IMG/VR virus record: IMGVR_UViG_3300021952_000017
Coordinates: 1 to 35,039 of that record
Reading direction: 5' to 3' (one strand)
Source of the DNA: a virus
Length of the DNA stretch: 35,039 bases
The translations under genes and the position numbers were made by a program. Positions 4,997 through 23,887 of this stretch are shown piece after piece. Below the pieces are notes generated by a model. That model did no database searches, was not told the origin of the DNA, and worked only from the letters and a program-made list of their open reading frames with translations. Within the stretch, counting starts at the first letter, position 1; each line of letters starts with the position of its first letter.

Positions 4997-5038
4997 GTTT
5001 ACAGTTAATAGTAAAACTACCGTTTTTTTCTTGGTAAA

Positions 5039-5182
5039 TCACACCAAGTCCTCCAGCTTAATACCTCGTTTTTCTAATTCTTTAAGCATTTTTCTATAAG
5101 CCCTTTCCAGTATTTCAGTAACCGCCTGATGGCTAATGCCCAATTCTTGCCCAATTTCTCTAAGTGTTTTTGGTTCTGTCAT
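5039..5182 (-). CDS. Mini sigma-region-4-like helix-turn-helix protein
   Basis: A 47-residue reading frame, ATG at 5182, with a strong AGGAGG site eight bases upstream. After MTEPK, the rest reads as a sigma-70 region 4.2 helix-turn-helix: TLREIGQELGISHQAV is the helix-turn-helix and TEILERAYRKMLKELEKRGI the following helix. In sigma factors this module reads the -35 element and touches the beta-flap. No other sigma region is present. It may act as a small DNA-binding regulator, an anti-sigma-like competitor or an RNA-polymerase appropriator. The fold assignment is fairly firm; the role is inferred. Confidence 0.75.
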   Translation of the reverse strand: MTEPKTLREIGQELGISHQAVTEILERAYRKMLKELEKRGIKLEDLV

Positions 5183-5191
5183 GGCGGCCTC

Positions 5192-5428
5192 CTAAAATAA
5201 TTGCATTTGGTCTTTTATTTTTAATGACACAAGGTAATTCTTTAAATCTTTGTCATCCTCATAAAATATTTTAGTGAATAACTGTTTTGTCGGCATACGG
5301 ACTGTGTAGTCCTCAAAAGACCCATACCGCACAAAGTAAGCAAACGCTCTGCAAGCCATTTCGTCTTCTTCGCACTTGTATTTCAATTCGCATTTGTCGC
5401 AAGGACATGGCTCACGGTTACTTTCCAT
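5192..5428 (-). CDS. Small Cys-rich putative zinc-binding protein
   Basis: A 78-residue protein whose N-terminus has C8-x-C10-x2-C13-x5-C19-x6-C26, then AFAYFVRYGSFED. The Cys pattern followed by an aromatic helix suggests a small zinc-binding fold, a type common in early regions of phages of Gram-negative bacteria. The C-terminus is charged and mixed. It overlaps the preceding leftward gene by 11 bases, so it is part of the same operon. Function unknown. Confidence 0.65.
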   Translation of the reverse strand: MESNREPCPCDKCELKYKCEEDEMACRAFAYFVRYGSFEDYTVRMPTKQLFTKIFYEDDKDLKNYLVSLKIKDQMQLF

Positions 5429-5630
5429 AGCGGCTCACATGGTCATATATTGCCTCATGGACTGATTGCTCAAATTTACCTTCTTTGTCTAGCGAGTAAA
5501 TCATTTCTAACACGCTAATGTCGGTGTCGGCTATGCGGTAGTCTGTAATGTCATCCATTGACATGGCTTCACCCCAAACATCAATAAGTGTGTCGCCACA
5601 ATAAACAGAAAGTAGTTGGTGTTCTCTCAT
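5418..5630 (-). CDS. Small acidic protein of unknown function
   Basis: A 70-residue protein, acidic, with alternating strand and helix (LLSVYCGDTLIDVWGE, then a helical second half ending DHVSRYGK). The start is supported by AAGGGGAA at 5636-5643. It is the first gene after a 292-base gap holding a possible structured RNA, so it may have its own promoter. No family recognised. Confidence 0.65.
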   Translation of the reverse strand: MREHQLLSVYCGDTLIDVWGEAMSMDDITDYRIADTDISVLEMIYSLDKEGKFEQSVHEAIYDHVSRYGK

Positions 5631-5794
5631 TTAATTTCCCCTTTAAATAAACAACAATCACAGTTTGTTTGAAATGGCAGGCAATGTCACTAATGACAAA
5701 CCCTAATGTATTCAAAAAACAACAGGGCTGTATTTGGCAGTTGCTGCAAATGGGTCAGAAAGCCGCAAAATTACCCAATTACTGCATCCTACAT

Positions 5795-5918
5795 TGGCGG
5801 CTTAACGCCCTAAATAGGGTGGGCTACTCGTTTCTTTACACTTTCGCCCATAAAAGGTGAGGCGGCAGGACTCCGTGATGTATGGTTGTGCAAAGGGGAA
5901 AAGCACACCTACCGCCTC
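5795..5918. ncRNA. Candidate structured RNA element in the 5631-5922 gap
   Basis: No convincing gene lies in 5631-5922. Its distal part is richer in G+C than its surroundings and holds a chain of helices: GGCG/CGCC (5796-5799 with 5806-5809), CCCT/AGGG (5808-5811 with 5816-5819, competing with the first), TGGGC/GCCCA (5820-5824 with 5846-5850), and an outer GAGGCGG/CCGCCTC (5859-5865 with 5912-5918) enclosing TGTGC/GCACA (5887-5891 with 5903-5907). The inner loop on the plus strand displays AAGGGGAA, the ribosome-binding octamer of the early genes, although no start follows. Strand is undecided: a leftward transcript from the exonuclease gene would also cross it. It could be an ncRNA, a leader or a terminator complex. 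Confidence 0.4.
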
Positions 5919-5922
5919 GTGG

Positions 5923-6672
5923 TTAGTTTAACTTATTTTTAAGTTTGTAAATTTTGAGTAATGACAAAAACATTTCATAGCCATCACGCAAGTCTTGTTC
6001 GCTATACTCATAAATAGCGACCTCATTAGTTTCGCCATTAATGTAGACATTGGCACATCGTGCAGATGGGGCTAAAACCTCTCTATATGCTGCCAACTGT
6101 AGTGTATGCTCTAGGTAGGGTGTTAAATCACCAGGTGCTTTCTCTGTCGTTTTAAAGTCAATTACCACCCCACCAAAGTCATGGCGTGGTTTGCAATATA
6201 AGTCACATTTGCCGCCATAACCTTCTTGAGCATTTACTAATGATTGCTCTGGAATCCACAATTGTGTCCCAAAATGGGATGTTATTGCGTCATCTACTTT
6301 GCGGACATAGTCAGGCATTTCCGGCACAAATTCTTGGTTGTAAAAAGACTCAATCCAATCGTGAATAATAGTGCCACGCTCTGCGGCCTCACGGCTTTTA
6401 CGCTTGGCTAATTCTAATATTCTGTAAATCCAGTCTTTTTCTTCTTCATCTTCGTAGCGTGGGTATTCTACGGCTGCGTATAAGACTTGAGTTTGCTTCC
6501 ATGTATCAAGCCCTGCTTTTGATAACTGGCTATTAATTGTTGATACGCTTGGGACAAGTGTACCTGGGTTTGCTTTTGCATCCCTAAGTGTTGTGCTTCT
6601 TTCTTTGCCGTTTTTACCAACGGTTGTATAGCGTGGTGCGCCTGTAATGGCATCGTACCAATGCTCTGACAT
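5923..6672 (-). CDS. RecB/Cas4-like PD-(D/E)XK exonuclease
   Basis: A 249-residue protein with the RecB-family nuclease motifs in order: GTIIHDWIE (His104), GYGGKCDLYCK (Asp157), GGVVIDFKTTEK (Asp172 and Lys174, the D-x-K core) and QLAAYR (Gln192, Tyr196). This set is shared by Cas4, RecB and phage exonucleases that resect DNA ends. No Cys cluster for an iron-sulphur centre is seen, so it is closer to the non-Cas4 type. With the ERF annealase and SSB-like gene just upstream it probably makes the single strands they anneal. The start is supported by AAGGGGAA at 6677-6684. Confidence 0.85.
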   Translation of the reverse strand: MSEHWYDAITGAPRYTTVGKNGKERSTTLRDAKANPGTLVPSVSTINSQLSKAGLDTWKQTQVLYAAVEYPRYEDEEEKDWIYRILELAKRKSREAAERGTIIHDWIESFYNQEFVPEMPDYVRKVDDAITSHFGTQLWIPEQSLVNAQEGYGGKCDLYCKPRHDFGGVVIDFKTTEKAPGDLTPYLEHTLQLAAYREVLAPSARCANVYINGETNEVAIYEYSEQDLRDGYEMFLSLLKIYKLKNKLN

Positions 6673-6704
6673 TTATTTCCCCTTATATACATTTAAATAC
6701 ACAT

Positions 6705-6902
6705 TTAAGTAAGTAATTCTAATACTGCTTCACGGCTTTGTGGGTCTATACAGCAATCCGCACAAGTTCTAATGACATCCTGAATAACGGCAGCTAAGTC
6801 ATTAACCTCAAATGCTATTAGCTGTCTTTCTTCATCAACGCCAAAAGGCTCTGTAGAAACTCTGGCTTTGTCGCCAATAACATCTTTGATATGACTTAGC
6901 AT
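6705..6902 (-). CDS. Small acidic protein of unknown function
   Basis: A 65-residue protein starting at an ATG with AGGAGG upstream. It is acidic, with a central beta-like stretch (ERQLIAFEVNDLAAVIQDVIR) and a Cys pair CADCC. It lies between the exonuclease and a secreted Cys-rich peptide in the leftward operon. No family recognised. Confidence 0.6.
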   Translation of the reverse strand: MLSHIKDVIGDKARVSTEPFGVDEERQLIAFEVNDLAAVIQDVIRTCADCCIDPQSREAVLELLT

Positions 6903-6911
6903 GGTTGCCTC

Positions 6912-7064
6912 CTAAAAACAGGTTGTATTGCAATTACCGTTGCCATAACAACAAGTTGTACAAGTCGTAAACTTGCCATTAATGTTGTATGTTTGCGTAG
7001 TGCATTGTGCATACACCAAAGTTGCAACCATAGACAACCAAATACCAATAATTAGCTTTTTCAT
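6912..7064 (-). CDS. Secreted cysteine-rich micro-protein
   Basis: A 50-residue reading frame with AGGAG seven bases upstream of ATG 7064. Residues 1-19 (MKKLIIGIWLSMVATLVYA) form a classic signal peptide with an AxA-like site (VYA, then QC). The mature part of about 31 residues has six Cys, including T-T-C-C, and is rich in Thr and Asn. Disulphide bonds in the periplasm are likely. It is too short for standard gene callers. It could be a host-envelope effector, for example superinfection exclusion or lysis timing, but nothing directly shows this. Confidence 0.6.
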   Translation of the reverse strand: MKKLIIGIWLSMVATLVYAQCTTQTYNINGKFTTCTTCCYGNGNCNTTCF

Positions 7065-7073
7065 AAATGCTCC

Positions 7074-7343
7074 TTAAAATGGGACATCGTCATCAATAAT
7101 GGTGTTGCGTGGCAATTCATCAGACCCAGCGGCTTTAAAGCCTACAGGTTGTTTTTCTTTGCCAATAGAAATGCTAAAAAACTTGCCTTTCTTGCCTTCT
7201 TTAACCCACGCTGACAAATAATGCTCTTTTCCGTTAACCATAACTGAGCCTGTATAGTCAGGATGAGTTTCCGTTGTTTTGCGGTCATTTTTAAATAACG
7301 AACCACTGCCTTCTTTTGGTACATAAGGTGTATTAAAAGCCAT
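7074..7343 (-). CDS. SSB-like single-stranded-DNA-binding protein
   Basis: An 89-residue protein. [19 protein letters not shown], then [20 protein letters not shown] and KFFSISIGK, gives the strand order of a small OB-fold protein of the DUF736/phage SSB type. The C-terminus is acidic and ends DDDVPF, close to the DDDIPF tail by which bacterial SSBs recruit partner proteins. It probably coats single-stranded DNA and could also engage host replication partners. It sits directly downstream of the ERF gene, and the start follows AAGGGGAA at 7348-7355. Confidence 0.7.
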
Positions 7344-7354
7344 TTCATTCCCCT

Positions 7355-7792
7355 TTAAATTTCTTTAGGTTTTACAACTGCTGGTTTAGATTGTGGATTG
7401 CTGGCGGCATTACCGTCATCATCCGCTTGCACTACTCCTACTACTGCTGCCAAACTGTACCTTCTCATGTAAGAAATACAGCTTCCTGCTCCTTGTGCAT
7501 CTACTTTTGACATAGGCACAGACATTTCTTGACTAATCCATTCTCCAGACTCATGTGTAAGGATAGTAATCAACGATATTGATTTATCCAAATCAGAATA
7601 AGTGCCAGGGAACTGAGAAACGGCAAGTCCGTTTTCGGATAATAAATTCCTGCAAGAATCCCAAACAGACTCAAGGTCAGCGTAATTAGACTTAAAAAAA
7701 GGATTTTTGCTGTCTTTTTTTGCATAGGTAAGTTTTCCCTGTACGATTGACAATGCTTTAGCTAAATTAGCAATGGTTTCACTTTGTTGCAT
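7355..7792 (-). CDS. erf: ERF-family single-strand annealing recombinase
   Basis: A 145-residue protein starting [17 protein letters not shown] 7792 is chosen over an upstream start because it has GGAGG at the right distance. The ERF superfamily hallmarks are present: [13 protein letters not shown] (residues 32-44), and [20 protein letters not shown] followed by ADDDG (residues 101-127). ERF proteins form rings that anneal complementary strands, as in P22. The gene overlaps the upstream small gene by 14 bases and precedes the SSB-like gene. It is shorter than P22 Erf, whose extra C-terminal domain is absent here. Confidence 0.9.
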
Positions 7793-7988
7793 GATTGCCT
7801 CCAAAAATTGTGCCAAAGTCATTAAATACTGACTGCAATAAGTCGTTGCGTTTGTTGTTTGGTTTGCCACAAGCAGCACGAATAACATCTACATCGTCTT
7901 GTGATAGGTCTGTGCCGTATTCCATGTTGTCAAGCGCTTCTTCTAAACGCTCTTCCATTTCCAGCATCAATTGATTTAATTCAGACAT
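7779..7988 (-). CDS. Small acidic helical protein, first gene of leftward operon
   Basis: A 69-residue protein whose first 40 residues are strongly acidic and helical (LNQLMLEMEERLEEALDNMEYG). The second half is more basic, containing GKPNNKRNDLLQSVF. It is the first gene read leftward from the divergent control region, with AAGGGGAA at 7995-8002. Leading position suggests an early role such as regulation or host takeover, but no family is recognised. Confidence 0.6.
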   Translation of the reverse strand: MSELNQLMLEMEERLEEALDNMEYGTDLSQDDVDVIRAACGKPNNKRNDLLQSVFNDFGTIFGGNHATK

Positions 7989-8114
7989 TTAAGTTTCCCC
8001 TTAAATACATAGCGAAATTGCTATATACAGACTTTAACATAACTTAAACACAATGTGCAAATAGTTTTTAAAGCGTTGTATTTACGCAATTTGTCATGGT
8101 AAGATAGCTTCATT
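7989..8114. promoter_or_regulatory. Divergent early control region with candidate operators
   Basis: These 126 bases separate the leftward early operon from the rightward Cro-like gene. An imperfect palindrome TAGCGAAATTGCTA lies at 8010-8023 and the related half-site GCAATTTG at 8086-8093, facing the other way. Together they look like operator sites for the adjacent helix-turn-helix protein. Rightward, TTGTAT and TAAGAT 18 bases apart could be -35/-10 boxes ending just before ATG 8115. Leftward, TATATA within 8021-8028 may be a -10. The boxes are weak and unproven. Confidence 0.4.
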
Positions 8115-8387
8115 ATGAAATTAAAACTAACCGAACACGCATTATTGCAGTTGCTTGGTGGCACAGGTAAAGTAGCAAAAATGTGCGAAGTTGAACCAGC
8201 AGCGGTATCCCAATGGAAAAAGAATGGCATACCAAGAGAGCAATTATTGTTTCTTGCCGCCAGAATAGAAAAAGAAAGTCATGGCTTAGTAACTCGTCAA
8301 GACCTTTTTCCTAATAACTGGTATTTGGTATGGCCTGAATTGTTGCCAAAAAACAACGCTTTTGGTGAACAAGATGATTCTGAGTAA
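8115..8387 (+). CDS. Cro/YdaS-like helix-turn-helix regulator
   Basis: A 90-residue protein. Residues 9-45 (LLQLLGGTGKVAKMCEVEPAAVSQWKKNGIPREQ) form a Cro-type helix-turn-helix: GTGKVAKMCEV then PAAVSQWKKNGIP matches the YdaS/Cro family. The C-terminal LFPNNWYLVWPEL also occurs in such regulators. It is divergent to the recombination operon and probably sets the early-transcription switch by binding 7989-8114. With no integrase or CI-type repressor visible, it need not mean lysogeny. Confidence 0.75.
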   Translation: MKLKLTEHALLQLLGGTGKVAKMCEVEPAAVSQWKKNGIPREQLLFLAARIEKESHGLVTRQDLFPNNWYLVWPELLPKNNAFGEQDDSE

Positions 8388-8928
8388 TGTCACTATATGC
8401 GCTATAGATTCGGTGCAACCTGATAAAGCCAAAAAAGCTATAGAACGAAGTAAACGACATATTAAATTTGGCGGTGAATTGTTTATTGACCATGCTAGTA
8501 TTAACAACCGCCAAGCCTATAGCAAGTTTGTGCTTCAAGAACTGCATAAATACATCCATACGGACTTTGTTTTAATTGTCCAATGGGATGGCTGGGTTAT
8601 TGACGCAAGCGCCTGGCAGCCTCAATTTTTAAATTATGACTACATTGGCGCAGTATGGCCTTGGCATCCTGAAGGATTAAGGGTTGGTAATGGTGGTTTT
8701 TCACTACGAAGCAAGAGGTTGTTGGAATTAACCAACACTCCTAAGTTTGTTTACAGCGACAAAAACGAAGATGACCTAATATGTCACCTCAACCGTGATT
8801 ATTTGGTTAGTAATGGCATTAAATTTGCGCCAGAAATGTTAGCAAGACAGTTTTCTTATGAAAGAGAAATAACAAACTTGCAAACCTTTGGTTTTCATGG
8901 TGATTTTCACATGAGCAAATACTTGTAG
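8374..8928 (+). CDS. DUF5672-like glycosyltransferase-fold protein
   Basis: A 184-residue protein, ATG 8374 (a TTG at 8362 is possible); it overlaps the regulator by 14 bases. The middle has the DUF5672 signature: LIVQWDGWVIDASAWQPQFL, then YDYIGAVWPWHPEG and VGNGGFSLRSKRLLEL. In this family the acidic/aromatic cluster is expected at the nucleotide-sugar and metal site. It may glycosylate host surface, virion proteins or DNA; the adjacent methyltransferase cluster leaves DNA modification open, but the substrate cannot be read from the sequence. Confidence 0.75.
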   Translation: MILSNVTICAIDSVQPDKAKKAIERSKRHIKFGGELFIDHASINNRQAYSKFVLQELHKYIHTDFVLIVQWDGWVIDASAWQPQFLNYDYIGAVWPWHPEGLRVGNGGFSLRSKRLLELTNTPKFVYSDKNEDDLICHLNRDYLVSNGIKFAPEMLARQFSYEREITNLQTFGFHGDFHMSKYL

Positions 8929-8941
8929 TAGAATTACAACC

Positions 8942-9131
8942 CCTTATGCTGGCGGCTCTAACGACATCGTGGCGGCATAAGGTAGTAGCGTTACCAGAAG
9001 GGTAAGAGGCTGAAATAGCGCAATACAGGTGGCGAAGTTAGTGCCTGTGCCTCGCAAGACTGACGGGTTAAGCGATTCCTCAATGGAAGACTTATGAAGG
9101 CAACCTAGGTAGGCTAGGTTTGCTCAAACCT
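8942..9131 (+). ncRNA. Candidate structured non-coding RNA (gap 8929-9303)
   Basis: The 375 bases 8929-9303 contain no gene. From 8942 they are relatively G+C-rich and form consecutive helices: CCTTATGC/GCATAAGG (8942-8949 with 8975-8982), TTACC/GGTAA (8991-8995 with 9001-9005), and GAGGC plus ACAGG (9006-9010, 9025-9029) pairing with the contiguous CCTGTGCCTC (9044-9053). Two mutually exclusive hairpins follow: AACCTA/TAGGTT (9102-9107 with 9115-9120) and AGGTTT/AAACCT (9116-9121 with 9126-9131). Nested pairing plus a switch-like pair suggests a real RNA. The strand is taken from the rightward genes on both sides. No tRNA T-loop or hammerhead core is visible. Confidence 0.45.
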
Positions 9132-9140
9132 CTTGGAAGT

Positions 9141-9220
9141 GTATTAAAGACCTTATTAATACCTATAGATATATTAAAGAAGTATTTATTAATACTTATA
9201 AGTTGTATTTAAGCAACTTA
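9141..9220. repeat. AT-rich iteron-like repeats and hairpin chain
   Basis: TATTAAAGA occurs at 9142-9150 and 9172-9180, and TTATTAATAC followed by C/T-TATA at 9153-9162 and 9186-9195, so two imperfect 30-33-base units stand in tandem. Inverted repeats overlie them: GTATTA/TAATAC (9141-9146 with 9157-9162), AAGTATT/AATACTT (9180-9186 with 9191-9197) and TAAGTTG/CAACTTA (9199-9205 with 9214-9220). About 600 bases downstream lies the replication gene, so an origin with iterons is possible. A terminator or operator array is the alternative. Confidence 0.45.
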
Positions 9221-9303
9221 GGGTTTTTAGGTAGTGACAACATAAAAAAACAGTAAGAAACTAGAGTCACTCAATAACGAGTAAACATTTAAGGGGAAAT
9301 TAA

Positions 9304-9615
9304 ATGAAAGACTTTATCGGTAGTTGTTTATTAGGCGCATTGATTGGCTGTATGTTTGCATACGGAGTGCCAGCAAAAGCACAAACTTACCCAATGACTA
9401 ACTCACAAGGTTATCAAGTTGGAACAGTACAAATTAATGGCAATACAGCGCAATTTGTAAACCCAATGGGCGTTACAACGCAAACAGCAACTATTTATCC
9501 AAACCAAGTTGTTATCACAACACCAAATGGTTACACACAAAGCGTAGTTGGCAATACTGGTTACACAGTACCGCCTAGCCTACCAACACCACAATCACCG
9601 AGGGTGTTGCAATGA
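9304..9615 (+). CDS. Secreted beta-rich protein of unknown function
   Basis: A 103-residue protein with a signal peptide (residues 1-26, with AKA before QTYP) followed by repeated Gln/Asn/Thr/Val strands (GYQVGTVQINGNTAQFVN, then PNQVVITTPNGYTQSVVG). AAGGGGAA at 9291-9298 sets the start. It probably goes to the periplasm or outer membrane. Its stop overlaps a one-helix membrane protein, suggesting the two work together. An effector on the host envelope is plausible but unproven. Confidence 0.65.
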   Translation: MKDFIGSCLLGALIGCMFAYGVPAKAQTYPMTNSQGYQVGTVQINGNTAQFVNPMGVTTQTATIYPNQVVITTPNGYTQSVVGNTGYTVPPSLPTPQSPRVLQ

Positions 9616-9752
9616 TTGATAAATTAAATAATTTTTTAGATAACATTTTGACAAATGTGTTTGACAAATATATGCCAATTACATTTACATTTTTATTTTT
9701 AATTACTTTTATTATTCCAATAATTGTTTTAATTTGGAGGGGTAATGTTTGA
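9612..9752 (+). CDS. Single-span membrane micro-protein
   Basis: A 46-residue reading frame coupled to the secreted protein by a four-base overlap (ATGA) and overlapping the replication gene start by eight bases. Residues 1-20 are polar (MIDKLNNFLDNILTNVFDKY); residues 21-41 are one transmembrane helix of Phe/Ile/Leu/Thr; the end is WRGNV. It is below usual gene-calling length. Position suggests partnership with the upstream secreted protein. Confidence 0.5.
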   Translation: MIDKLNNFLDNILTNVFDKYMPITFTFLFLITFIIPIIVLIWRGNV

Positions 9753-10116
9753 TGAATTCTGGTCTTTATATCCACGAAAAATTGCTAAAGCAGCTGCAAG
9801 AAAAGCCTGGGCAAAATTGTCCGCAGAACAACAACTTATGGCTGCAAAAGCTATTAACACACATTGCCAATACTGGAAAGCAAAAGAAACCGAATTAGAA
9901 TACATACCCCATGCAAGCACTTGGCTTAACGGTGAACGCTATGAGGATGAATTAGTAATTGAACCCAAGAAAGAAAAGATTGACAAAAAGTGGATGTTTA
10001 GCAATGAAGGTATTGAAGCTAAAGCTAGAGAACTTGGAGTCTTGGGTACTGGTTATGACTCTTACGACAGCCTTAAACGCAAATGTATGAACAAGCTAGG
10101 CATGAGTGTGGTGTAA
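9745..10116 (+). CDS. Replication protein, O-like / helicase-loader type
   Basis: A 123-residue protein starting MFDEFWSLYPRK, with GGAGGGG just upstream. FWSLYPRKIAKAAARKAWAKL, then YIPHASTWLNGERYEDEL, is the conserved module of phage O-like and DnaT-like replisome proteins that recruit host helicase. The usual N-terminal winged-helix initiator part is missing, so the protein is short. No helicase or polymerase gene is in the window, so this is probably the sole phage factor opening replication for host machinery. The C-terminal 45 residues overlap the next gene. Confidence 0.7.
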   Translation: MFDEFWSLYPRKIAKAAARKAWAKLSAEQQLMAAKAINTHCQYWKAKETELEYIPHASTWLNGERYEDELVIEPKKEKIDKKWMFSNEGIEAKARELGVLGTGYDSYDSLKRKCMNKLGMSVV

Positions 10117-10295
10117 GGTTTCTATGCCATTTACGGCATAAAAAAGGGTTGGCTTGGTTTAGAAATTACATTAGTGAAAAGAACTTTAGCCAAGCATTAT
10201 TAAACGACTTCTATGACCAATGGAAGTTAGGTAACAAAGGGGAATGGGGATGTTGGAAAAATACATTGTCGCAGCAACAGGGTTTGGATATTTAA
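10083..10295 (+). CDS. Conserved small protein of the replication module
   Basis: A 70-residue protein whose start lies inside the end of the replication gene in another frame. It reads ARHECGVRFLCHLRHKKGLAWFRNYI, then LLNDFYDQWKLGNKGEWGCW. The C-x-VR...LR-x-KGL...QWxLGNKGEW pattern resembles small proteins often found directly after replication genes in phages of proteobacteria. Overlaps on both sides support translational coupling. Biochemical role unknown. Confidence 0.65.
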   Translation: MYEQARHECGVRFLCHLRHKKGLAWFRNYISEKNFSQALLNDFYDQWKLGNKGEWGCWKNTLSQQQGLDI

Positions 10296-10396
10296 TTGTA
10301 GGAATACTGCAATTTACTAAAGGTTCTATATCTAATGCGTTAATTTGGATTGGCTATGCTGCCGCACAAATTGGTCTATGGATGAACCTTAAATGA
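10250..10396 (+). CDS. Two-helix membrane micro-protein
   Basis: A 48-residue reading frame starting at ATG 10250, five bases after AAGGGGAA (10237-10244), the early-gene Shine-Dalgarno octamer. Two hydrophobic segments (VAATGFGYLIVGILQF and ALIWIGYAAAQIGLWM) flank a polar loop. It overlaps the preceding gene by 46 bases and the methyltransferase start by four. The ribosome site and coupling are the main evidence; function unknown. Confidence 0.55.
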   Translation: MLEKYIVAATGFGYLIVGILQFTKGSISNALIWIGYAAAQIGLWMNLK

Positions 10397-11556
10397 ACTA
10401 TTTAAGCGTTTGTTCTGGAATAGAAGCGGCCACAGTAGCGTGGCATCACATGGGTTGGAAACCAGTAGGTTTTAGCGAAATTGAGAAATTTCCTAGTCAA
10501 TTATTGGCACACCATTACCCAGAAGTCACCAATTTTGGTGATATGACTAAATACAAAGAATGGAATATAAATGACTCAGTTGGACTTTTGGTCGGAGGTA
10601 CTCCCTGCCAATCATTTAGCGTTGCAGGCTTACGCAAAGGACTTGACGACCCAAGAGGTAACCTCGCTCTTACCTATGTTGGAATTCTTGACAGATTTAG
10701 ACCCCAATGGTGTGTATGGGAAAATGTGCCAGGTGTCCTCAGCAGCGGAAGAGGAAGGGACTTTGGTAGTTTCCTCGGGGCGTTGGTCGAACTCGGGTAT
10801 GGGTTTTCGTACAGGGTGCTTGACGCTCAAAACTTCGGAGTCGCCCAAAGACGCAAGCGTGTGTTTGTTGTCGGATACCTTGGAGATTGGCGACCTGCCG
10901 CAAAAGTATTATTTGAGTCCGAAAGCCTGTCAGGGGATATTAAACAGAGCCGCAAAGAGAAACAAGAAATTGCCGGACGCTTTGTACCAAGCGTTGCTAA
11001 CTGTATCCAAACAACTTGTAACGACTACAGTAGAGCAGACGGATTTAATATGATTGCGTACAACATTAGGGAATGTGCGGCAAACAACACATTTAATGCT
11101 ACTCCAACAAATGTAGCAACAACGCTGCAAAAAACACAGCCTTCCGTACAAAGTCATCACACTCAGACATTTGTTGCGGTTGATATGTATAACTTAACAA
11201 CTAATAACAGCACAAGTCAAACCATTAGAAATGGTACAGATATTGACCATGTTGGAGGTGTTATGAAATCTGTTTTTTGCGATACATACAATGGAACAAT
11301 ACAAGGTAATGTGGCGGCAACAATGACTGCTGATATGGCAGGCCCTACTCATAGTGGCCCTAAAGTAATGCAAGATAGTTTAGTTCGAAGACTTACCCCA
11401 GTTGAATGTGAAAGATTGCAGGGTTTTCCAGATAACTACACTAATATTAAAGAAAACTGCCCAGATGGAAATAGATATAGAGCATTAGGTAATTCAATGG
11501 CTGTGCCTGTAATGCGCTGGATTGGCGAAAGGATTAATAATTATGAAAGATTATGA
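10393..11556 (+). CDS. dcm: DNA (cytosine-5) methyltransferase
   Basis: A 387-residue C5-methyltransferase with the ordered motifs: SAM-binding motif I (SVCSGIEAATVA, residues 5-16), catalytic PCQ (Cys72 in GGTPCQSFS), ENV (110-112), QRRKR (152-156), a variable target-recognition region about 195-330, motif IX (RRLTPVECERLQGFPD from 332) and GNS (366-368). It methylates cosine-ring carbon 5 of cytosine in a specific site, probably shielding phage DNA from host restriction. No paired restriction enzyme is proven, though PD-(D/E)XK and HNH nucleases follow. A long second reading frame lies inside it. The start overlaps the upstream stop. Confidence 0.93.
   Translation: MNYLSVCSGIEAATVAWHHMGWKPVGFSEIEKFPSQLLAHHYPEVTNFGDMTKYKEWNINDSVGLLVGGTPCQSFSVAGLRKGLDDPRGNLALTYVGILDRFRPQWCVWENVPGVLSSGRGRDFGSFLGALVELGYGFSYRVLDAQNFGVAQRRKRVFVVGYLGDWRPAAKVLFESESLSGDIKQSRKEKQEIAGRFVPSVANCIQTTCNDYSRADGFNMIAYNIRECAANNTFNATPTNVATTLQKTQPSVQSHHTQTFVAVDMYNLTTNNSTSQTIRNGTDIDHVGGVMKSVFCDTYNGTIQGNVAATMTADMAGPTHSGPKVMQDSLVRRLTPVECERLQGFPDNYTNIKENCPDGNRYRALGNSMAVPVMRWIGERINNYERL
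10571..11053 (+). CDS. Candidate overlapping gene inside the methyltransferase gene
   Basis: A 160-codon ATG-started frame runs inside the methyltransferase gene in another frame, unusually long for AT-rich DNA. The product has a non-random tail: SSGRWSNSGMGFRTGCLT, LKTSESPKDASVCLLSDTL, then YYLSPKACQGILNRAAKR and KLPDAL. From memory, proteins with RWxNSGM...TSE...LS...YYLSPKACxGILRRAxKRGKxLP are found free-standing near phage methyltransferases. That would make this a conserved dual-coding region. The alternative is that conserved methyltransferase codons keep this frame open by chance. No good ribosome site precedes the start. Function unknown. Confidence 0.45.
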   Translation: MTQLDFWSEVLPANHLALQAYAKDLTTQEVTSLLPMLEFLTDLDPNGVYGKMCQVSSAAEEEGTLVVSSGRWSNSGMGFRTGCLTLKTSESPKDASVCLLSDTLEIGDLPQKYYLSPKACQGILNRAAKRNKKLPDALYQALLTVSKQLVTTTVEQTDLI

Positions 11557-11872
11557 CCCAAATGATGCGATTGACTTCATCTTCAAAACAGCGCCACTCT
11601 ACGCAAAAGCTAAAGGGGAGTTGGCGCAACTTGAAACTTTTAAAAGTTCTCTTAAGGCGATTAAAATGGCACAAACAGACGAACAGTCTTTGGGTGCGCA
11701 GGAAAGAGAGGCTTATCGCTCTCAAGAGTACCAAGATTTATGCAAAGCGATTGGTAATGCTACAGAACAGGCGGAAGCGCTTAAATGGCAACTAGAAGCC
11801 GCAAAAATGCGTTTTGAAGCATGGCGCACAGAACAAGCAACAAACCGAAACATTGAAAGAATGACTAAATGA
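11543..11872 (+). CDS. Conserved phage coiled-coil protein
   Basis: A 109-residue protein; ATG 11543, with AAAGGA upstream, is preferred over ATG 11522, which lies deeper in the methyltransferase gene. It is almost wholly helical: APLYAKAKGELAQLETFKSSLKA, QEREAYRSQEYQDLCKAI, and ALKWQLEAAKMRFEAWRTEQA. The QEREAY...W..AA..R.E.WRT pattern recurs in uncharacterised proteins of phage replication/recombination modules, as I recall. It is coupled to neighbours by overlaps. Function unknown. Confidence 0.65.
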   Translation: MKDYDPNDAIDFIFKTAPLYAKAKGELAQLETFKSSLKAIKMAQTDEQSLGAQEREAYRSQEYQDLCKAIGNATEQAEALKWQLEAAKMRFEAWRTEQATNRNIERMTK

Positions 11873-12045
11873 CAGATTACTCTGAAAACTATCTTAAAAT
11901 TCAACGACTTTTAAAGGCATATCACAATGCAACCCTTAAAGGTAACTTTGAAAAAGCCACAAAATTAGCCCATGATTTGGCTGATGAAACAATACAACTT
12001 GAAATTGCAAGCATTAGACAATTAAAAAACCAATGGCTAAGTTAA
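11869..12045 (+). CDS. Small helical protein of unknown function
   Basis: A 58-residue reading frame between a four-base overlap with the preceding stop (ATGA) and a 13-base overlap with the nuclease gene. It is all helical (YLKIQRLLKAYHNATLKG, then EKATKLAHDLADETIQLEIASIRQLK). Position, coupling and amphipathic pattern support it. It might partner the preceding coiled-coil protein. Confidence 0.55.
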   Translation: MTDYSENYLKIQRLLKAYHNATLKGNFEKATKLAHDLADETIQLEIASIRQLKNQWLS

Positions 12046-12410
12046 TGCGTAATATGTTTGCCACTCACACCGATTATGGAGATTTTAAAGGTGTGATTGA
12101 GTCAAACCCAGCATTTTTGCCAAGTAATGTAGATGGCATAGCAGAACGCAATGGGCATTTTTTAATACTTGAGTGGAAACGCCCAGGCGAAAAAATGAGT
12201 GAAGGCCAAAAGCGTATGTTGCAAGCATTAGCAGCCACACCTAAGTTTATGGTTGTCGTTATTATTGGTGATACTGACAATGGCACAAACATTCAAGAGT
12301 ATTGGCAATTTACGCAAGACGGCAAACCATTCAAAGCTGGTATTGGCTTTGGTTCATTTAAAGAGTTTTATAGACTATGGTATGAATTAGCTGATGGCTA
12401 CAAAAAATGA
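12033..12410 (+). CDS. PD-(D/E)XK-fold nuclease
   Basis: A 125-residue protein with a compact nuclease core: Asp34 in SNVDGIAE, then Glu47-x-Lys49 in FLILEWKRPG, then Gln59 in SEGQKRML, followed by a hydrophobic strand KFMVVVIIG. The D...ExK...Q order matches PD-(D/E)XK nucleases such as phage Holliday-junction and end-processing enzymes. ATG 12033 is used; ATG 12048 would lose five residues. It might form a modification-restriction pair with the methyltransferase or act in recombination; the sequence does not decide. Confidence 0.65.
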   Translation: MAKLMRNMFATHTDYGDFKGVIESNPAFLPSNVDGIAERNGHFLILEWKRPGEKMSEGQKRMLQALAATPKFMVVVIIGDTDNGTNIQEYWQFTQDGKPFKAGIGFGSFKEFYRLWYELADGYKK

Positions 12411-12681
12411 AAAGAACGCTTATCACAAGGTTGCAGAACTCGGATGTATTCTCTGTGCCACCATCCTTGGGTTTGAAGGCACTCCGGCAGAACTCCATCA
12501 CATACGCAGGTATGGAACTAAACGGTCTACATCCCCTGTCATCCCATTATGCCCAGAACACCATAGGGGAAATAGTGGGGTTCACGGATTGGGTCACAAG
12601 GGTTTTAGCAATAAATGGGGCATTACCGAGGAGGAGTTGTTGGAGCGAGTCAATCAAAAACTTGGAAAGGGAAATGAGTGA
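12394..12681 (+). CDS. Ref-like HNH nuclease
   Basis: A 95-residue protein: C18-x2-C21 in LGCILC, H35-H36 in AELHHIRRYG, C53-x2-H56-H57 in PLCPEHHRG, and VHGLGHKGF with His64, then NKWGITEEELLE. This matches the catalytic part of Ref (P1 recombination-enhancement, RecA-dependent HNH nuclease) and related phage proteins; its N-terminal extension is missing. In P1, Ref cuts RecA-bound DNA. It overlaps the upstream nuclease by 17 bases, so the two are co-expressed. Confidence 0.8.
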   Translation: MATKNEKNAYHKVAELGCILCATILGFEGTPAELHHIRRYGTKRSTSPVIPLCPEHHRGNSGVHGLGHKGFSNKWGITEEELLERVNQKLGKGNE

Positions 12682-12758
12682 ATGATATTTTGCTTGCTTT
12701 TGGTGTATTAGTAATTTTGCTGCCTATAATAGCCGTATGGATAACACTACAACTCTAG
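12678..12758 (+). CDS. Possible 26-residue membrane peptide
   Basis: A GTG overlapping the preceding TGA (GTGA), with AAAGGGA seven bases upstream, opens a 26-codon frame whose product is almost one continuous hydrophobic helix (ILLAFGVLVILLPIIAVWI). Its end overlaps the leftward SprT-like gene end. Coupling and composition are suggestive, but length makes this uncertain. Confidence 0.3.
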   Translation: MNDILLAFGVLVILLPIIAVWITLQL

Positions 12759-13094
12759 AGGGTCAAACCCCAATTCAGACGAGATTCGGTGCGCTCTATT
12801 ACGAAACTCCTTATCATGGTGTGTCCATTTTGAAGTCTTGTGTCTACTCATGTGGATGCACTCATGGCAAAGAACACGAATTACTGTGTCAAGATGACCG
12901 CAACGAGCCGCAGAAATAGTAATCGTATGCTCGTACTCTTCACCTGTGTCATATAAATAAGTACCCATAGCTGCTGGGTCTTTATCCACTACAAAGTTAA
13001 TTTCTTCAGGCAAAGGCATATTCCACCTATCAAAAGGCTTCATACAGTAAATAGCGCTGTATAGATTCTTAAGAATAGCTGGAGTTAACTTCAT
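12747..13094 (-). CDS. SprT-like zinc metalloprotein
   Basis: A 115-residue protein with the zincin motif H77-E78-C-I-H81 (VLCHECIHMSRH) and a downstream HHDKEFRNRA, where His92 or His93 can supply the third zinc ligand, as in SprT/WLM-type proteases. The strand TYLYDTGEEYEHTITIS before the helix fits the minimal metzincin layout. It may cleave or bind DNA-linked proteins, as SprT-like proteins do; activity is inferred. It overlaps the metallophosphoesterase stop by four bases, downstream in the same leftward unit. Confidence 0.75.
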   Translation of the reverse strand: MKLTPAILKNLYSAIYCMKPFDRWNMPLPEEINFVVDKDPAAMGTYLYDTGEEYEHTITISAARCGHLDTVIRVLCHECIHMSRHKTSKWTHHDKEFRNRAHRISSELGFDPLEL

Positions 13095-14050
13095 ACTCTA
13101 TGTATTTTGCCTCTAAATTCAACTTCATCTTCACCCCAAACCCTAATCATTTCTGGCTGAAGCAATTTGCTGCGCTCAAATGAAAGCATAACAAACCCTG
13201 AATTCCAGTCTTTAGGCGTATCTTCTGTGTAAGCAAATTGTTGACCATGTAAGTCAGCCAATGTGCCAGTTTGAACACCCCAGCGTGTGCCGTTATAGTC
13301 AGAAACAGGCATAACACTTAAGTGATGTGTATGACCTGTAATCATATTTACACCTGAATTAAGGGAATTGGCACGCCCAGCGCTAAATCCACCTTTCCAG
13401 CGGTGTTTAATGCAAGTGTCTTCGTTTACCCAAAATGACCAGCATGGCAGCCACGCAGGAAAATGCTCTTTCAAAGTAGTTCCTACCACGCCTTCAAATG
13501 CAGGTAAGTTTTCAATAATCCGCATTTCCCAGCGTGCGTCATGGTTTCCTAAAGGCCAAAACATTTTTGCGCCCCTAGCTACAGATTCAATTTCACCCAA
13601 ATAATATTGCACCGCTTCTAATTCTTCTTGTACTGTTGGTAGCTTAGACCAGTCTTGGCGTGGATGACGGCTAATAGAAGCCCCATCTAGCGCATCGCCA
13701 TTACAGACAATAGCTGTAGGTTTATATTCTTTAATGCACTCCAAAAGCGCTTTAAATGCGGTTGTAGTTTGGTCAGGCCAAAAGTGAGCGTCAGAGAACA
13801 CAATGACTCGCCCTTTTTCTATATCCATGCCTCTGCGAGTATTGCCAACTGTTTCTTCAGTCTTTTTAAAAGCGCTTACTCTGGTATCGTTAAATGATGG
13901 TAGGGTAATCCCTAATCTAGTTTCTATTGACCTTCTGCGGTTATATACGGCTCTTTCAGTTAATGCGTGTATCTTTGCAAAAGTAAGTGGTGAACCAATC
14001 CTTTGCCATTCAGCTACAAATTCTTCGTCTGTTAACCAATAGCCACGCAT
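13091..14050 (-). CDS. Calcineurin-like metallophosphoesterase with N-terminal HTH
   Basis: A 319-residue protein. Residues 8-48 resemble a helix-turn-helix (LTFAKIHALTERAVYNRRRS). From residue 80 the metallophosphoesterase motifs follow in order: Asp87-x-His89 (FSDAHF), Gly118-Asp119 (CNGDALDG), GNHD (168-171) and GHTH (239-242). These bind two metals and hydrolyse phosphoesters. The HTH plus phosphatase layout occurs in other phages and may target DNA or nucleotide ends. AAGGGGAA at 14055-14062 marks the start. It forms a two-gene leftward unit with the SprT-like gene, facing a 45-base divergent gap. Confidence 0.88.
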   Translation of the reverse strand: MRGYWLTDEEFVAEWQRIGSPLTFAKIHALTERAVYNRRRSIETRLGITLPSFNDTRVSAFKKTEETVGNTRRGMDIEKGRVIVFSDAHFWPDQTTTAFKALLECIKEYKPTAIVCNGDALDGASISRHPRQDWSKLPTVQEELEAVQYYLGEIESVARGAKMFWPLGNHDARWEMRIIENLPAFEGVVGTTLKEHFPAWLPCWSFWVNEDTCIKHRWKGGFSAGRANSLNSGVNMITGHTHHLSVMPVSDYNGTRWGVQTGTLADLHGQQFAYTEDTPKDWNSGFVMLSFERSKLLQPEMIRVWGEDEVEFRGKIHRV

Positions 14051-14095
14051 TTATTTCCCCTTATACTGTAAGTTGCTAAACACTAACATAAAATT

Positions 14096-14383
14096 ATGTC
14101 TTATATTAAAAAAGTTGATAAAAATCAAAAGGATGTTGTTAAAGCGCTACGAGATTATGGCGCTACAGTATTTCTTTTGCATACAGTCGGTGGAGGAATC
14201 CCTGACTTGATGGTGTGTTACGCAGACCAAACCATTTTAATGGAAGTGAAAGATGGGGCAGATAAAAAATTGACCCCACAACAAATAACGCTTTTTGCTA
14301 ACTGGGTCGGTGGCCCACTTCACCGAGTAAATTCTGTGCAAGAGTCTATAGAAGTGCTAAAATTCTACGAAATGGAGAGTTAA
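14096..14383 (+). CDS. VRR-NUC domain nuclease
   Basis: A 95-residue stand-alone VRR-NUC protein: TVGGGIPDLMV (Asp37), ILMEVKDG (Glu50-x-Lys52), LTPQQITLFANW (Gln62), and a closing V-G-G...RV strand. This PD-(D/E)XK subgroup includes FAN1-type structure-specific nucleases and many phage proteins; Holliday-junction or branch processing before packaging is the usual proposal. It starts the rightward block leading to packaging, 45 bases from the divergent phosphoesterase gene. Confidence 0.85.
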   Translation: MSYIKKVDKNQKDVVKALRDYGATVFLLHTVGGGIPDLMVCYADQTILMEVKDGADKKLTPQQITLFANWVGGPLHRVNSVQESIEVLKFYEMES

Positions 14384-14385
14384 TT

Positions 14386-14745
14386 ATGAATGAAAACATG
14401 GCTTTATTTGCCGCAACCTTGTTGCATAGCGCAACTAATACCCATTTCTTTCATTGGTCTACTGACTCTTACAGCAAACACAAGGCTTTAGGCAATTATT
14501 ATGATGAAATCGTTGAGTTAACTGACGATTTGGTTGAGGCATATATGGGATGCTACGAACAGCTTATTTCATTCCCAAGCACATACCACCAGCCTAAAGA
14601 ACCACTTAAGTATATGGAATCATTAAAGAATTTTGTTGATGACGCTCGCAAAGATTTGCCGCAGGAAACACAAATTCAGAATATTATTGACGAAATAGCC
14701 CAGCTAATTGACTCAACTCTTTACAAACTACGCTTTTTAAAATAG
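14386..14745 (+). CDS. Ferritin-like/DUF5856-type helical protein
   Basis: A 119-residue all-helical protein: LLHSATNTHFFHWSTDSYSKHKALGNYYDEIVELTDDLVEAYMG, then a C-terminal helix NIIDEIAQLIDSTLYKLRFLK. His and Asp/Glu in helices 1 and 2 (THFFHWST, HKALGNYYDEI) resemble the Dps/ferritin-like fold of phage DUF5856 proteins. Metal binding is possible; a DNA-protective Dps role is only suggestive. GGAG precedes the start, and the next gene begins eight bases after the stop. Confidence 0.65.
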   Translation: MNENMALFAATLLHSATNTHFFHWSTDSYSKHKALGNYYDEIVELTDDLVEAYMGCYEQLISFPSTYHQPKEPLKYMESLKNFVDDARKDLPQETQIQNIIDEIAQLIDSTLYKLRFLK

Positions 14746-14753
14746 GAGGCACT

Positions 14754-14951
14754 ATGCCATTAGATAAATCAGGTAGCGCTCAAAGCGTAGGTAAAAACAT
14801 TAAAGCCGAAGAAAAAGCTGGAAAACCACGCAAACAAGCAATAGCTATTGCCCTCAATGTTGAGCGTGATAATGCCAAAGGTAAGCGTAAAGCCAAGTTA
14901 GAAGAGGCTTATGGTCGTTTTCTAGGTAAGCGTGACGCTGAGAAGATGTAA
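14754..14951 (+). CDS. Small basic conserved phage protein
   Basis: A 65-residue, Lys/Arg-rich protein starting MPLDKSGSAQSVGKNIKAEE, with AGGAGG upstream. KPRKQAIAIALNVERDNAKG is a recurring helix in short proteins placed just before terminase genes. The first of four adjacent small basic genes, joined by one-base overlaps. DNA binding is likely from charge; role unknown. Confidence 0.7.
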   Translation: MPLDKSGSAQSVGKNIKAEEKAGKPRKQAIAIALNVERDNAKGKRKAKLEEAYGRFLGKRDAEKM

Positions 14952-15217
14952 TGAGTCGCCAAGACCAAATTCGTGCCGCAGTAGAAAAACACGATAAACC
15001 GATTGCCAAAACTACCAAAGGTAAAGGTAGGCACTATCTGTCAGTAGAAGAAGGTGCAGGCATGACAGAAGCTGGTCGCAAAGCATACAACGCAAAAAAC
15101 AACGCTAATTTACAAGCCCCTCAAGCTAGTGGCCCAAGACATGACAGTTTCTGTGCAAGGTCTAAAGGCTGGACAGGTGAGCGTGGTAAAGCGGCTAGAG
15201 CAAGGTGGAAGTGCTAA
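14951..15217 (+). CDS. Small basic DUF6321-like protein
   Basis: An 88-residue basic protein with LSVEEGAGMTEAGRKAYNAK, then RHDSFCARSKGW. The GAGMTxAGRKxYN plus SFCARxKG combination is known from DUF6321-type phage proteins upstream of packaging genes. It is coupled by one-base overlaps to both neighbours. It probably binds nucleic acid or the packaging complex; unproven. Confidence 0.72.
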   Translation: MSRQDQIRAAVEKHDKPIAKTTKGKGRHYLSVEEGAGMTEAGRKAYNAKNNANLQAPQASGPRHDSFCARSKGWTGERGKAARARWKC

Positions 15218-15396
15218 TGAAAAACGGTTTATACGCTAATATCCACGCAAAACAAGAACGCATTAAAAATGGTTCTGGTGAAAAGATGCGTAAACCAGGT
15301 AGTAAAGGCGCACCCACCGCAGAAGCATTTAAAGAGTCTGCTAAGACTGCAAAACCACGCAGAAAACACATTGAAGACGCTATGAAGGATATGTAA
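15217..15396 (+). CDS. Small basic conserved phage protein (MKNGLYANIHAKQ type)
   Basis: A 59-residue basic protein starting MKNGLYANIHAKQERIKNG on the ATG overlapping the previous TAA; an upstream start at 15205 lies inside the previous gene and is not used. GEKMRKPGSKGAPTAEAFKESAKTAK is recurrent among phages near terminase genes. No enzymatic motif. Likely a DNA-associated structural or packaging helper. Confidence 0.7.
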   Translation: MKNGLYANIHAKQERIKNGSGEKMRKPGSKGAPTAEAFKESAKTAKPRRKHIEDAMKDM

Positions 15397-15620
15397 TGGA
15401 ACACATGAATAGAAAATTCCCCAAGGGAAACAACTTGTTGCGTGAACACAAAGAGTCCACCCTTGAAAAACAAGAAGCAAAGCGTAATAAGCCAAAGCCA
15501 CCAGAATTAGAAGTAGATAGCGAATACGACATTCTTGATAAGAAAGCTAACCAAAGAATGAAGCGTAAAGCTATGCTACACGCAGCAATGAACAAGATTC
15601 ACGACCCTGACATAGCGTGA
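15396..15620 (+). CDS. Small charged protein of unknown function
   Basis: A 74-residue protein, highly charged (KESTLEKQEAKRNKPKPPELEVD), with a helical basic end ANQRMKRKAMLHAAMNK. It is the last of the four linked small genes and ends inside a candidate promoter for the packaging block. No family recognised. Confidence 0.6.
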   Translation: MEHMNRKFPKGNNLLREHKESTLEKQEAKRNKPKPPELEVDSEYDILDKKANQRMKRKAMLHAAMNKIHDPDIA

Positions 15621-15626
15621 TACAAT
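15598..15626 (+). promoter_or_regulatory. Candidate sigma-70-type promoter for packaging/virion genes
   Basis: TTCACG (15598-15603) and TACAAT (15621-15626) are separated by 17 bases, and TGA directly precedes the -10 as an extended TGn element. It lies 33 bases upstream of the small terminase start, at one of the few gaps in the rightward block. Similarity to a housekeeping promoter is good but unproven. Confidence 0.45.
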
Positions 15627-15658
15627 AAAGTCCTTATATTTCAACTACTTGGAATAAT

Positions 15659-15991
15659 ATGACTGAAAAACAATCAAAAAATACCAAAGGTGGCTACCGA
15701 GAAGGTTCTGGAAGACCTAAAGGTGTGCCTAATAAGGCTACACAAGAGGCTAGAGAGGCTGTCAAGGCTATCTTGGACAGTAACCTGCCCTTTATTCAAT
15801 CGTGGATTCAAAGTACCGCAGATGGCATATTTGATGACCAGTCTGGTAAATGGATTGTGCCGCCAAACCCAGCCAAAGCGTGTGACATCGTACAAAACAT
15901 GGTTGAATATGCTGTGCCTAAACTTGCTAGAACTGAAGTAGTAGGCGATGAACAAAAACCAGTACGCATGGTGGTGTCTTGGAAGAAATAG
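15659..15991 (+). CDS. terS: Small terminase-like DNA-binding protein
   Basis: A 110-residue protein: GGYREGSGRPKGVPNKATQEAREAV (N-terminal DNA-binding linker and helix), a central helix, then DIVQNMVEYAVPKLARTEV. The GRPKGxPNK start and EYxxPKLARTE end are typical of short phage small-terminase proteins. It recognises phage DNA for packaging together with the large subunit, whose gene overlaps its end by 13 bases. Confidence 0.75.
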   Translation: MTEKQSKNTKGGYREGSGRPKGVPNKATQEAREAVKAILDSNLPFIQSWIQSTADGIFDDQSGKWIVPPNPAKACDIVQNMVEYAVPKLARTEVVGDEQKPVRMVVSWKK

Positions 15992-17325
15992 TCCAAGAGG
16001 TAGAATTAGACTACCAACCTCGTGATGTATTTCTAGATTTCCACGAAAGAAGCCAACGCTGGGCGGTTATTGTTGCTCACCGTAGATGCGGCAAAACTGT
16101 TAGCTGCATTAACGAATTAATCTATAAAGCCCTAATTGAGGGCAAAGAAGATGGTCGCTACGCTTATGTTGCACCATATTACAGCCAAGCTAAGAATATC
16201 GCCTGGGACTATTTGTTACGCTTTAGTAAGCCTGTAATGGCTAAAGCTAATCAATCAGAACTATGGGTGGAACTAATAAATGGCGCAAGGATTAGGTTGT
16301 TTGGTGCTGATAATGCTGACTCTCTACGAGGTTTATACCTTGATGGGATTGTCCTAGATGAGTACGCAGATATGCGCCCTCGTATTTGGGGCGAGATTAT
16401 TCGGCCTTTGTTGGCAGATAGACTCGGGTGGGCAGTTTTCATTGGAACACCTAAAGGCCATAACGCCTTCTGGGACATCTATAACAACGCCATCAAAGAT
16501 GATAACTGGTATGCCAAAACCCTAAGAGCAAGTCAAACAGGGTTGATTAGCCCTGAAGAATTGGCTGATGCCGCCAAGATAATGACGCAAGACCAATACT
16601 TGCAAGAGTTTGAGTGTGACTTTGAGTCTGCAATCCTTGGTGCTTACTATGGTAAAGAAATGCGTCAACTCACCGATGCCAACAGAATTACCAATATTGA
16701 GTATGACCCTATGTTTCCTGTGCATACAGCATGGGACTTGGGTTATTCAGATGACACCGCTATTTGGTGGTTTCAAGTCGTGCATGGCGAGATTCGTATG
16801 CTTGATTACCATTCATCTAATGGTCAGCCAGTAGCGTTTTATGCCGGCATTATTGCTAACCGAGAGCGTGAGCGTGGCTACAACTATGGCACTCATTATT
16901 TGCCCCATGATGCTCGTGCAAAAACATTAGCGTCAAATAAGTCCATAATTGAGCAACTTTCTGACAAAATTCCGCTAAAATATCTAAAAATTGTGCCAAG
17001 TTTGTCACTTCAAGATGGAATACAAGCAACTCGACTAGCATTAACGAGGGCTTGGTTTGACCACAAGTGCGAAGATGGCATTGAATGTTTAAGGCAATAC
17101 CAGCGTGAATACGATGAGGACAAGAAAGTCTTTAGGGATAAACCTAGACATGATTGGACTTCTCATGGTGCTGACGCATTTAGGATGTTGGCTATTGCCT
17201 GGAAAGAAGAAGCAAGGTTGCCCCATAAGGATGACTCCATTAAAGGGCTGTTTGTAGGACAAACTGATGTTAGCTTGAATGATTTGTGGAAGCAACCACA
17301 GTCAACTTCAAGAGGGAGAATTTGA
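15979..17325 (+). CDS. terL: Terminase large subunit
   Basis: A 448-residue packaging motor. ATPase: Walker A AHRRCGKT (33-40), Walker B GIVLDEYAD (123-131, with Asp127-Glu128). Nuclease: Asp253 in TAWDLGYSDDT and the C-terminal HDWTSHGADAFRM with late metal ligands. It starts at a TTG (15979) inside the small terminase gene because no ATG/GTG lies nearer the conserved YQPRDVFLDFHER. It cuts concatemers and pumps DNA into the prohead through the portal. Confidence 0.93.
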   Translation: MEEIVQEVELDYQPRDVFLDFHERSQRWAVIVAHRRCGKTVSCINELIYKALIEGKEDGRYAYVAPYYSQAKNIAWDYLLRFSKPVMAKANQSELWVELINGARIRLFGADNADSLRGLYLDGIVLDEYADMRPRIWGEIIRPLLADRLGWAVFIGTPKGHNAFWDIYNNAIKDDNWYAKTLRASQTGLISPEELADAAKIMTQDQYLQEFECDFESAILGAYYGKEMRQLTDANRITNIEYDPMFPVHTAWDLGYSDDTAIWWFQVVHGEIRMLDYHSSNGQPVAFYAGIIANRERERGYNYGTHYLPHDARAKTLASNKSIIEQLSDKIPLKYLKIVPSLSLQDGIQATRLALTRAWFDHKCEDGIECLRQYQREYDEDKKVFRDKPRHDWTSHGADAFRMLAIAWKEEARLPHKDDSIKGLFVGQTDVSLNDLWKQPQSTSRGRI

Positions 17326-23863: not shown

Positions 23864-23887
23864 ACACCTGATAACTTAGGAGAAACC

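Follow-up and report, generated by a model that had tools for sequence, protein, structure and literature searches.

Structured RNAs that lie close to a phage promoter and form part of an early transcript include the put RNAs of phage HK022. These RNAs are found downstream of PL and PR, occur in two copies per phage, are about 70 nt long with two stem-loops, and act on RNA polymerase without a dedicated protein (PMC9378689). A further hallmark of the put type is read-through by RNA polymerase through the beta' zinc-binding domain. GOLLD, ROOL, and OLE are large, ornate, conserved RNAs of bacteria and phages whose function was long unknown (PMC12286853). A further catalogued RNA, Betaproteobacteria-1 (Rfam RF02932), is typed in Rfam as an sRNA gene, ends at 120 nt, and is drawn with three stems, P1, P2, and P3. 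No paper naming it was found in the literature searched, most subscription papers lying outside that literature. The RNA analyzed here is a phage-borne, functionally unexplained member of this family. Like put, it is a promoter-proximal structured phage RNA placed in an early transcript.

Identification of the RNA

The window (the whole stretch of viral DNA that was analyzed, 35,039 nt) contains a gap without genes of 375 bases at 8929-9303, between ORFs at 8362-8928 and 9304-9615, just as an earlier note on this DNA had described. That note proposed a non-coding RNA of several helices in the gap and stated that it matched no RNA its reader could recognize. A cmscan search did recognize it: RF02932 matched with an E value of 3e-15 and a score far beyond the curated gathering score of 49.4 bits. 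The whole model was aligned, with its consensus stems formed and no broken pair marked, and these stems show compensatory changes across relatives. RF02932 was the sole Rfam family that cmscan reported for the window, and the RNA occurs as a single copy in the 35-kb virus record. There was no sequence match to GOLLD, ROOL, or OLE, which are much larger than Betaproteobacteria-1 RNA. ARAGORN found no tRNA or tmRNA in the window.

A comparison of approximately 150 viral relatives, together with the copies that 59 of 398 genomes in one host family contain, shows that the conserved RNA is about 198 nt long rather than 120, and reaches approximately position 9139. Single-sequence folding was unremarkable (z = 0.33 for 8936-9180 and -0.38 for 8936-9072); ordinary folding does not single out the region because the fold is pseudoknotted. 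Mimicry of 16S rRNA (helices 22-24) was considered and rejected, as the resemblance consisted only of a shared 10-mer or stretch of 10-16 nt (GGTGGCGAAG), and most members scored like shuffles. The features discussed below are collected in Table 1.

Table 1 Coordinates of the RNA, its structural elements, and neighboring features. Positions are those of the window unless a relative is named.
Feature	Position	Strand	Details
Promoter	8906-8934	+	-35 TTCACA (8906-8911), 17-nt spacer, -10 TAGAAT (8929-8934)
RF02932-covered part	8942-9068	+	88.2 bits, model 1-120
Full conserved RNA	8942-9139	+	Rfam match plus 3' domain; predicted 5' end ~8941, R2 end 9139
P1 stem-loop	8942-8949 with 8975-8982 (8942-8982)	+	stem of 5-12 pairs, differing in sequence, in nearly all relatives
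PK1 pseudoknot	8970-8972 (P1 loop) with 8994-8996 (P2 loop)	+	three window pairs 100% paired; CG/UA and AU/GC exchanges
P2	8988-8993 with 9016-9021	+	four covarying pairs, 94-98% canonical vs 58-80% shuffled
P5	9006-9010 (GAGGC) with 9049-9053 (GCCTC)	+	90% paired, two-sided changes in all five pairs
P4	9025-9029 (ACAGG) with 9044-9048 (CCTGT)	+	92% paired, two-sided changes in three pairs
P3	9037-9042 with 9059-9064	+	99.7% paired
Helix A	9069-9072 with 9091-9094	+	85% paired, four of four pairs change on both sides; own score 10.1 vs 7.4 shuffled
R1, first twin-motif copy (CCTCAATGGAAG)	9078-9089	+	R1/R2 within-genome likeness
Hairpin C	9100-9108 with 9114-9123, loop GUAGG	+	82-89% paired, covarying
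R2, second twin-motif copy (CCTCTTGGAAG)	9129-9139	+	R1/R2 likeness, in chromosomal copies too
Cro/YdaS-like regulator, upstream	8115-8387	+	phrog_35; Pfam YdaS_toxin / P22_Cro
DUF5672 gene, upstream	8362-8928		cargo between Cro-like gene and RNA
Small secreted-type ORF, downstream	9304-9615		signal-like N-terminus
Replication initiation protein, downstream	9745-10116	+	phrog_270, E 8e-20
H1-H2 example in relative L136	7023-7135	-
H1-H2 example in relative L075	3485-3617	-
H1-H2 example in relative L096	9660-9797	+
Defence neighbor of chromosomal copy L193	205 nt away		HmaB/HmaC
Defence neighbor of chromosomal copy L235			QatB/QueC-like pair
Defence neighbor of chromosomal copy L231			JetA (Wadjet)
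Defence neighbor of chromosomal copy L234			PDC-M09B
Defence neighbor of chromosomal copy L230			PDC-S37-like protein

A covarying pseudoknotted core

An alignment of 58 diverse relatives (A1) was built with MAFFT without structure, and hence was not fitted to a fold model. For the structure composed of P2, P5, P4, P3, PK1, helix A, and hairpin C, 90.2% of the cells in this alignment were paired compared to 73.7% after shuffling, with 369 two-sided changes against 121.5 and a covariation score of 0.435 against 0.162. Sliding the structure by 1-3 columns reduced the score to 0.07-0.11. The shuffles leave the relatedness of the sequences in place; the slid control also keeps relatedness and still fails. 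Strong covariation supports a core of interlocking pseudoknots (PK1, P2, P5, P4, and P3), in which P5 crosses P2, P4 lies inside P5, and P3 crosses both P4 and P5. The second pair of P3 is A-U, C-G, or U-A in 31, 30, and 27 of 90 sequences, respectively, and is canonical in 100% compared to 45% when shuffled. A U.G pair in P3, present in 81 of the 90, identifies the plus strand as coding and excludes the opposite strand. The three stems drawn by Rfam, P1, P2, and P3, are all present and covarying in the window RNA and its relatives, and PK1, P4, and P5 are added to them here.

All helices named in the earlier note exist at their positions, and its nested GAGGC and ACAGG junction corresponds to P5 and P4, both of which covary. 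Its proposal of a multi-helix non-coding RNA is upheld by covariation across the relatives, in which no conserved coding frame was detected.

A 3' domain with a twin motif

Downstream of the 120 nt described by Rfam, the relatives carry a further 75-nt 3' domain that begins with helix A, the loop of which contains R1, and continues with UGAAGG, hairpin C, and R2. It was observed in 120 of 121 unique relatives (0.3 expected), which had been retrieved by core-only patterns ending at CGGGU. R1 and R2 are direct repeats, alike inside one phage and differing between phages: their similarity was 7.13 within a genome compared to 4.22 (sd 0.13) between genomes (n=89), and in chromosomal copies, described below, it was 6.66 compared to 5.64 for shuffles. 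No complement to R1/R2 was found inside the RNA, in 400 nt upstream, in approximately 400-500 nt downstream, or in the phage loci, and no further R1/R2 copies were found across the phage loci.

The earlier note had described two hairpins in this domain as mutually exclusive, in the manner of a switch or attenuator. The first, AACCTA/TAGGTT (9102-9107/9115-9120), is part of the conserved hairpin C. The second, AGGTTT/AAACCT (9116-9121/9126-9131), does share bases 9116-9120 with it, but is unconserved, with 29.9% of cells paired in the 58 aligned relatives versus 31.8% when shuffled. The second hairpin is therefore a chance pairing, not one half of an exclusive pair under selection. A three-strand alternative, in which a strand X would pair with either R1 or R2, fails as well (9.05 versus 8.77 and 9.49 versus 9.41 for real versus shuffled partners). 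A riboswitch or attenuator controlling the downstream gene would suit a structured RNA sited in a 5' region. That explanation is largely refuted by the unconserved alternative hairpin and is highly improbable, as the downstream genes differ with no fixed link to one kind of gene, and the RNA is followed neither by a terminator nor by a platform for sequestering a ribosome site.

A replication-initiation transcript was also weighed, either an activating transcript or an origin primer, in which case R1/R2 and the AT-rich sequence following R2 would be parts of an origin. Replication genes adjoin the RNA in many loci, and the 82 nt after R2 are 72% AT versus 59% for the loci as a whole; AT-rich spacers, however, are common in intergenic DNA. 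The distance between R1 and R2 changes with hairpin C, and both repeats are embedded in RNA structure that covaries, for which reasons R1/R2 were also set aside as DNA iterons. Stand-alone chromosomal copies, moreover, are not at origins, and we consider a role in replication initiation very unlikely.

Phage gene context and promoter

Approximately 180 viral loci, many of them unique, were retrieved from IMG/VR with two core patterns. When 18 viral records were searched with the Rfam model, all 18 contained exactly one copy (80-104 bits). Using the window RNA as a blastn query, no match was found in INPHARED phages or PLSDB; with other family members as query, two of the named phages searched, and these alone, were found to carry the RNA. 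In both, Acidovorax phage AP1 and MW202545, it lies in a rightward early region behind helicase/primase genes. A pattern scan of genome contigs returned eight matches, none of which was this RNA.

The phage gene order consists of divergent leftward genes (exonuclease, Erf-type annealing protein, and single-strand binding protein), a Cro/YdaS-like gene, variable cargo, the RNA, a small gene, and a replication initiator. In 94 of 163 loci the Cro/YdaS-like cluster was among the four genes upstream, and in 78 of 163 the replication-initiation cluster lay downstream. The cargo slot holds DUF5672 in the window, where the earlier note had seen a glycosyltransferase, and a PAPS-reductase-like protein, methyltransferases, or others in relatives. 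Of the secreted or membrane pair that the note placed downstream, the first member does have a signal-like N-terminus, and the second is instead the replication initiation protein. In two pairs of loci, L008/L017 and L024/L034 (IMGVR_UViG_3300032241_000056, _000348), contigs end inside the RNA from both ends with about 100 bp shared; the assembler probably stopped at sequence common to many phages of one sample.

The sigma70-like promoter ahead of the RNA matches 10 of 12 consensus positions and is the best such site within 5000-24900; its position predicts the 5' end given in Table 1. Among 59 unique phages, the window included, that make up group 1, a promoter ended 3-10 nt ahead of P1 in 31, compared to 0-1 of 59 at ten other offsets. 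Very probably, the RNA is expressed early in infection from its own promoter, starting at the base of P1, as part of the rightward early operon. Terminators after the RNA in phages were no more frequent than chance (3 found versus 3-6), so that a free RNA would need processing.

Downstream genes are co-directional with the RNA in 126 of 127 phage loci, which a cis-acting leader would also fit. By analogy with HK022, the main rival explanation is a put-like antiterminator, whereby the nascent RNA would stay on RNA polymerase and allow read-through of the long early operon. The RNA's start at a promoter, its constant placement ahead of co-directional genes, and its position after a Cro-like gene, which resembles that of nutR/putR, all point this way. 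No known N- or Q-like protein was present among the window ORFs scanned, and put itself needs no such dedicated protein (PMC9378689). However, the window RNA differs from put in its length, in its interlocked pseudoknots in place of two stem-loops, in being present once rather than twice per phage, and in standing alone in chromosomes. Additionally, no intrinsic-terminator-like site was found on the plus strand of the window between the RNA and 26389, which would leave such an antiterminator little to suppress unless termination is Rho-dependent. Put-like action in cis is, in our assessment, unlikely.

A second RNA upstream in relatives

In about half of the relatives, though not in the window, the RNA is preceded by a promoter, two hairpins, of which the first (H1) is short and the second (H2) long, and finally a U run. 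The U run stops 5-20 nt before P1 in 57 of 110 unique loci, compared to 5-8 in shuffles. A bulge in H2 can pair with 4-8 bases located immediately before H2, inside or close to the loop of H1; this held for 44 of 44 cases, with 6-8 bases pairing in 40 of them (score 17.0 versus 11.5 when shuffled). The H2 terminator hairpin reaches up to 27 bp. Terminators with such long hairpins were largely confined to this site, with 36 there, 2 slightly further upstream, and 2 elsewhere in 871 kb. A strong terminator upstream of the RNA would be out of the reach of a put-like antiterminator, which is a further point against that explanation. In L136 a second H1-H2 copy lies behind another promoter approximately 3.8 kb upstream. 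There is no entry for the H1-H2 RNA in Rfam 15.

Chromosomal copies and their neighbors

The order and the family around Methylophilaceae genomes G019 and G276 were searched with the Rfam model. In the order, the RNA was reported in 6 of 399 genomes, 4 of them above the cut-off; two of the six, the weak matches L188 and L189, were judged by sequence inspection to be chance. In the host family, 59 of 398 genomes carried it (57 scoring beyond the cut-off); a single genome held as many as 4 copies, often separated by 3-40 kb. Of the 27 chromosomal copies examined, most are not part of a phage gene order and retain the 3' domain. Two have lost it, one of them apparently between R1 and R2, and two (L228 and L241) are in a phage-like arrangement. 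One subtype (L230, L238-L240) has no clear R1.

A promoter motif, AATCAT-N15-GTATAC, precedes 16 of the 27 chromosomal copies (0.02 expected), and the gene that follows shares the strand of the RNA in 13 cases and lies on the opposite one in 14. The conserved promoter motif together with the lack of orientation bias indicates that the chromosomal copies are not leaders, and favors action in trans over that of a cis leader. The same lack of orientation speaks against both the antiterminator and the riboswitch. The common denominator of the phage and chromosomal data would be a transcribed, stand-alone structured RNA.

Several chromosomal copies lie beside defence genes (Table 1). At a threshold of 1e-10, PADLOC families numbered 37 in 79 neighbors compared to 4 in 79 controls (proteins from the same genomes), a count in which several families land on one long protein and some matches may be generic or wrong; at L229, for example, a "DrmD" match is accompanied by an ORF the size of a transposase and could instead be an IstB-like protein of the IS21 type. 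The G+C content of the chromosomal RNA regions was 57.9% versus 62.8% for controls. The link to defence is an association and, as the controls were not chosen as islands, it could mean only that the RNA lies in islands.

Such a setting raises the possibility of a selfish or island-marking RNA gene, carried by islands and phages, that marks a recombination hot spot where cargo is exchanged. The varying cargo next to the phage RNA, the low-GC islands, and the clustering of copies would all agree with this. At L229, the R1-to-R2 stretch of the second copy (~13377-13495) has seemingly been lost, as if the direct repeats had recombined, and this apparent deletion likewise agrees with a hot spot. 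The conserved promoter and the compensatory changes throughout the RNA, however, show selection on the RNA itself, and the downstream phage genes, being those of replication, are stable. Island marking therefore appears rather improbable.

Discussion

The reading that we favor, tentatively and at somewhat less than even chances, is that the RNA stands alone and works in trans through a host partner, while R1/R2 engage a second partner that changes rapidly. According to this proposal, the rigid core would bind a conserved host partner, either a protein or a ribonucleoprotein, and the second partner would be recognized by a motif present twice, as R1 and R2; these would vary together from phage to phage because both recognize it. 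Phage and chromosomal copies may use, or compete for, the same partner. Since related multicopy RNAs are found in host chromosomes, some of them beside defence systems, the likely setting would be phage-host or phage-phage competition. A more specific scenario, an arms-race RNA, strikes us as doubtful: here, an early phage RNA would oppose multicopy relatives in host defence islands, competing for one partner through the common pseudoknotted core, with R1/R2 setting specificity and half of the phages gating the RNA by means of an uncatalogued pseudoknotted terminator RNA.

The extension of the fold, the promoter, the twin motif, the chromosomal distribution, and the H1-H2 RNA are neither in Rfam nor in the literature searched, which included few subscription papers. 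Relatives occur in Acidovorax phage AP1 as well as in the order and family searched. Direct repeats that co-vary with no internal partner are unusual, and point to a fast-evolving partner outside the RNA. With these results RF02932, a catalogued family without known function, gains a longer fold, a promoter, a strand, a place in phage early operons, and proximity to chromosomal defence genes, and an orphan motif becomes a testable RNA gene.
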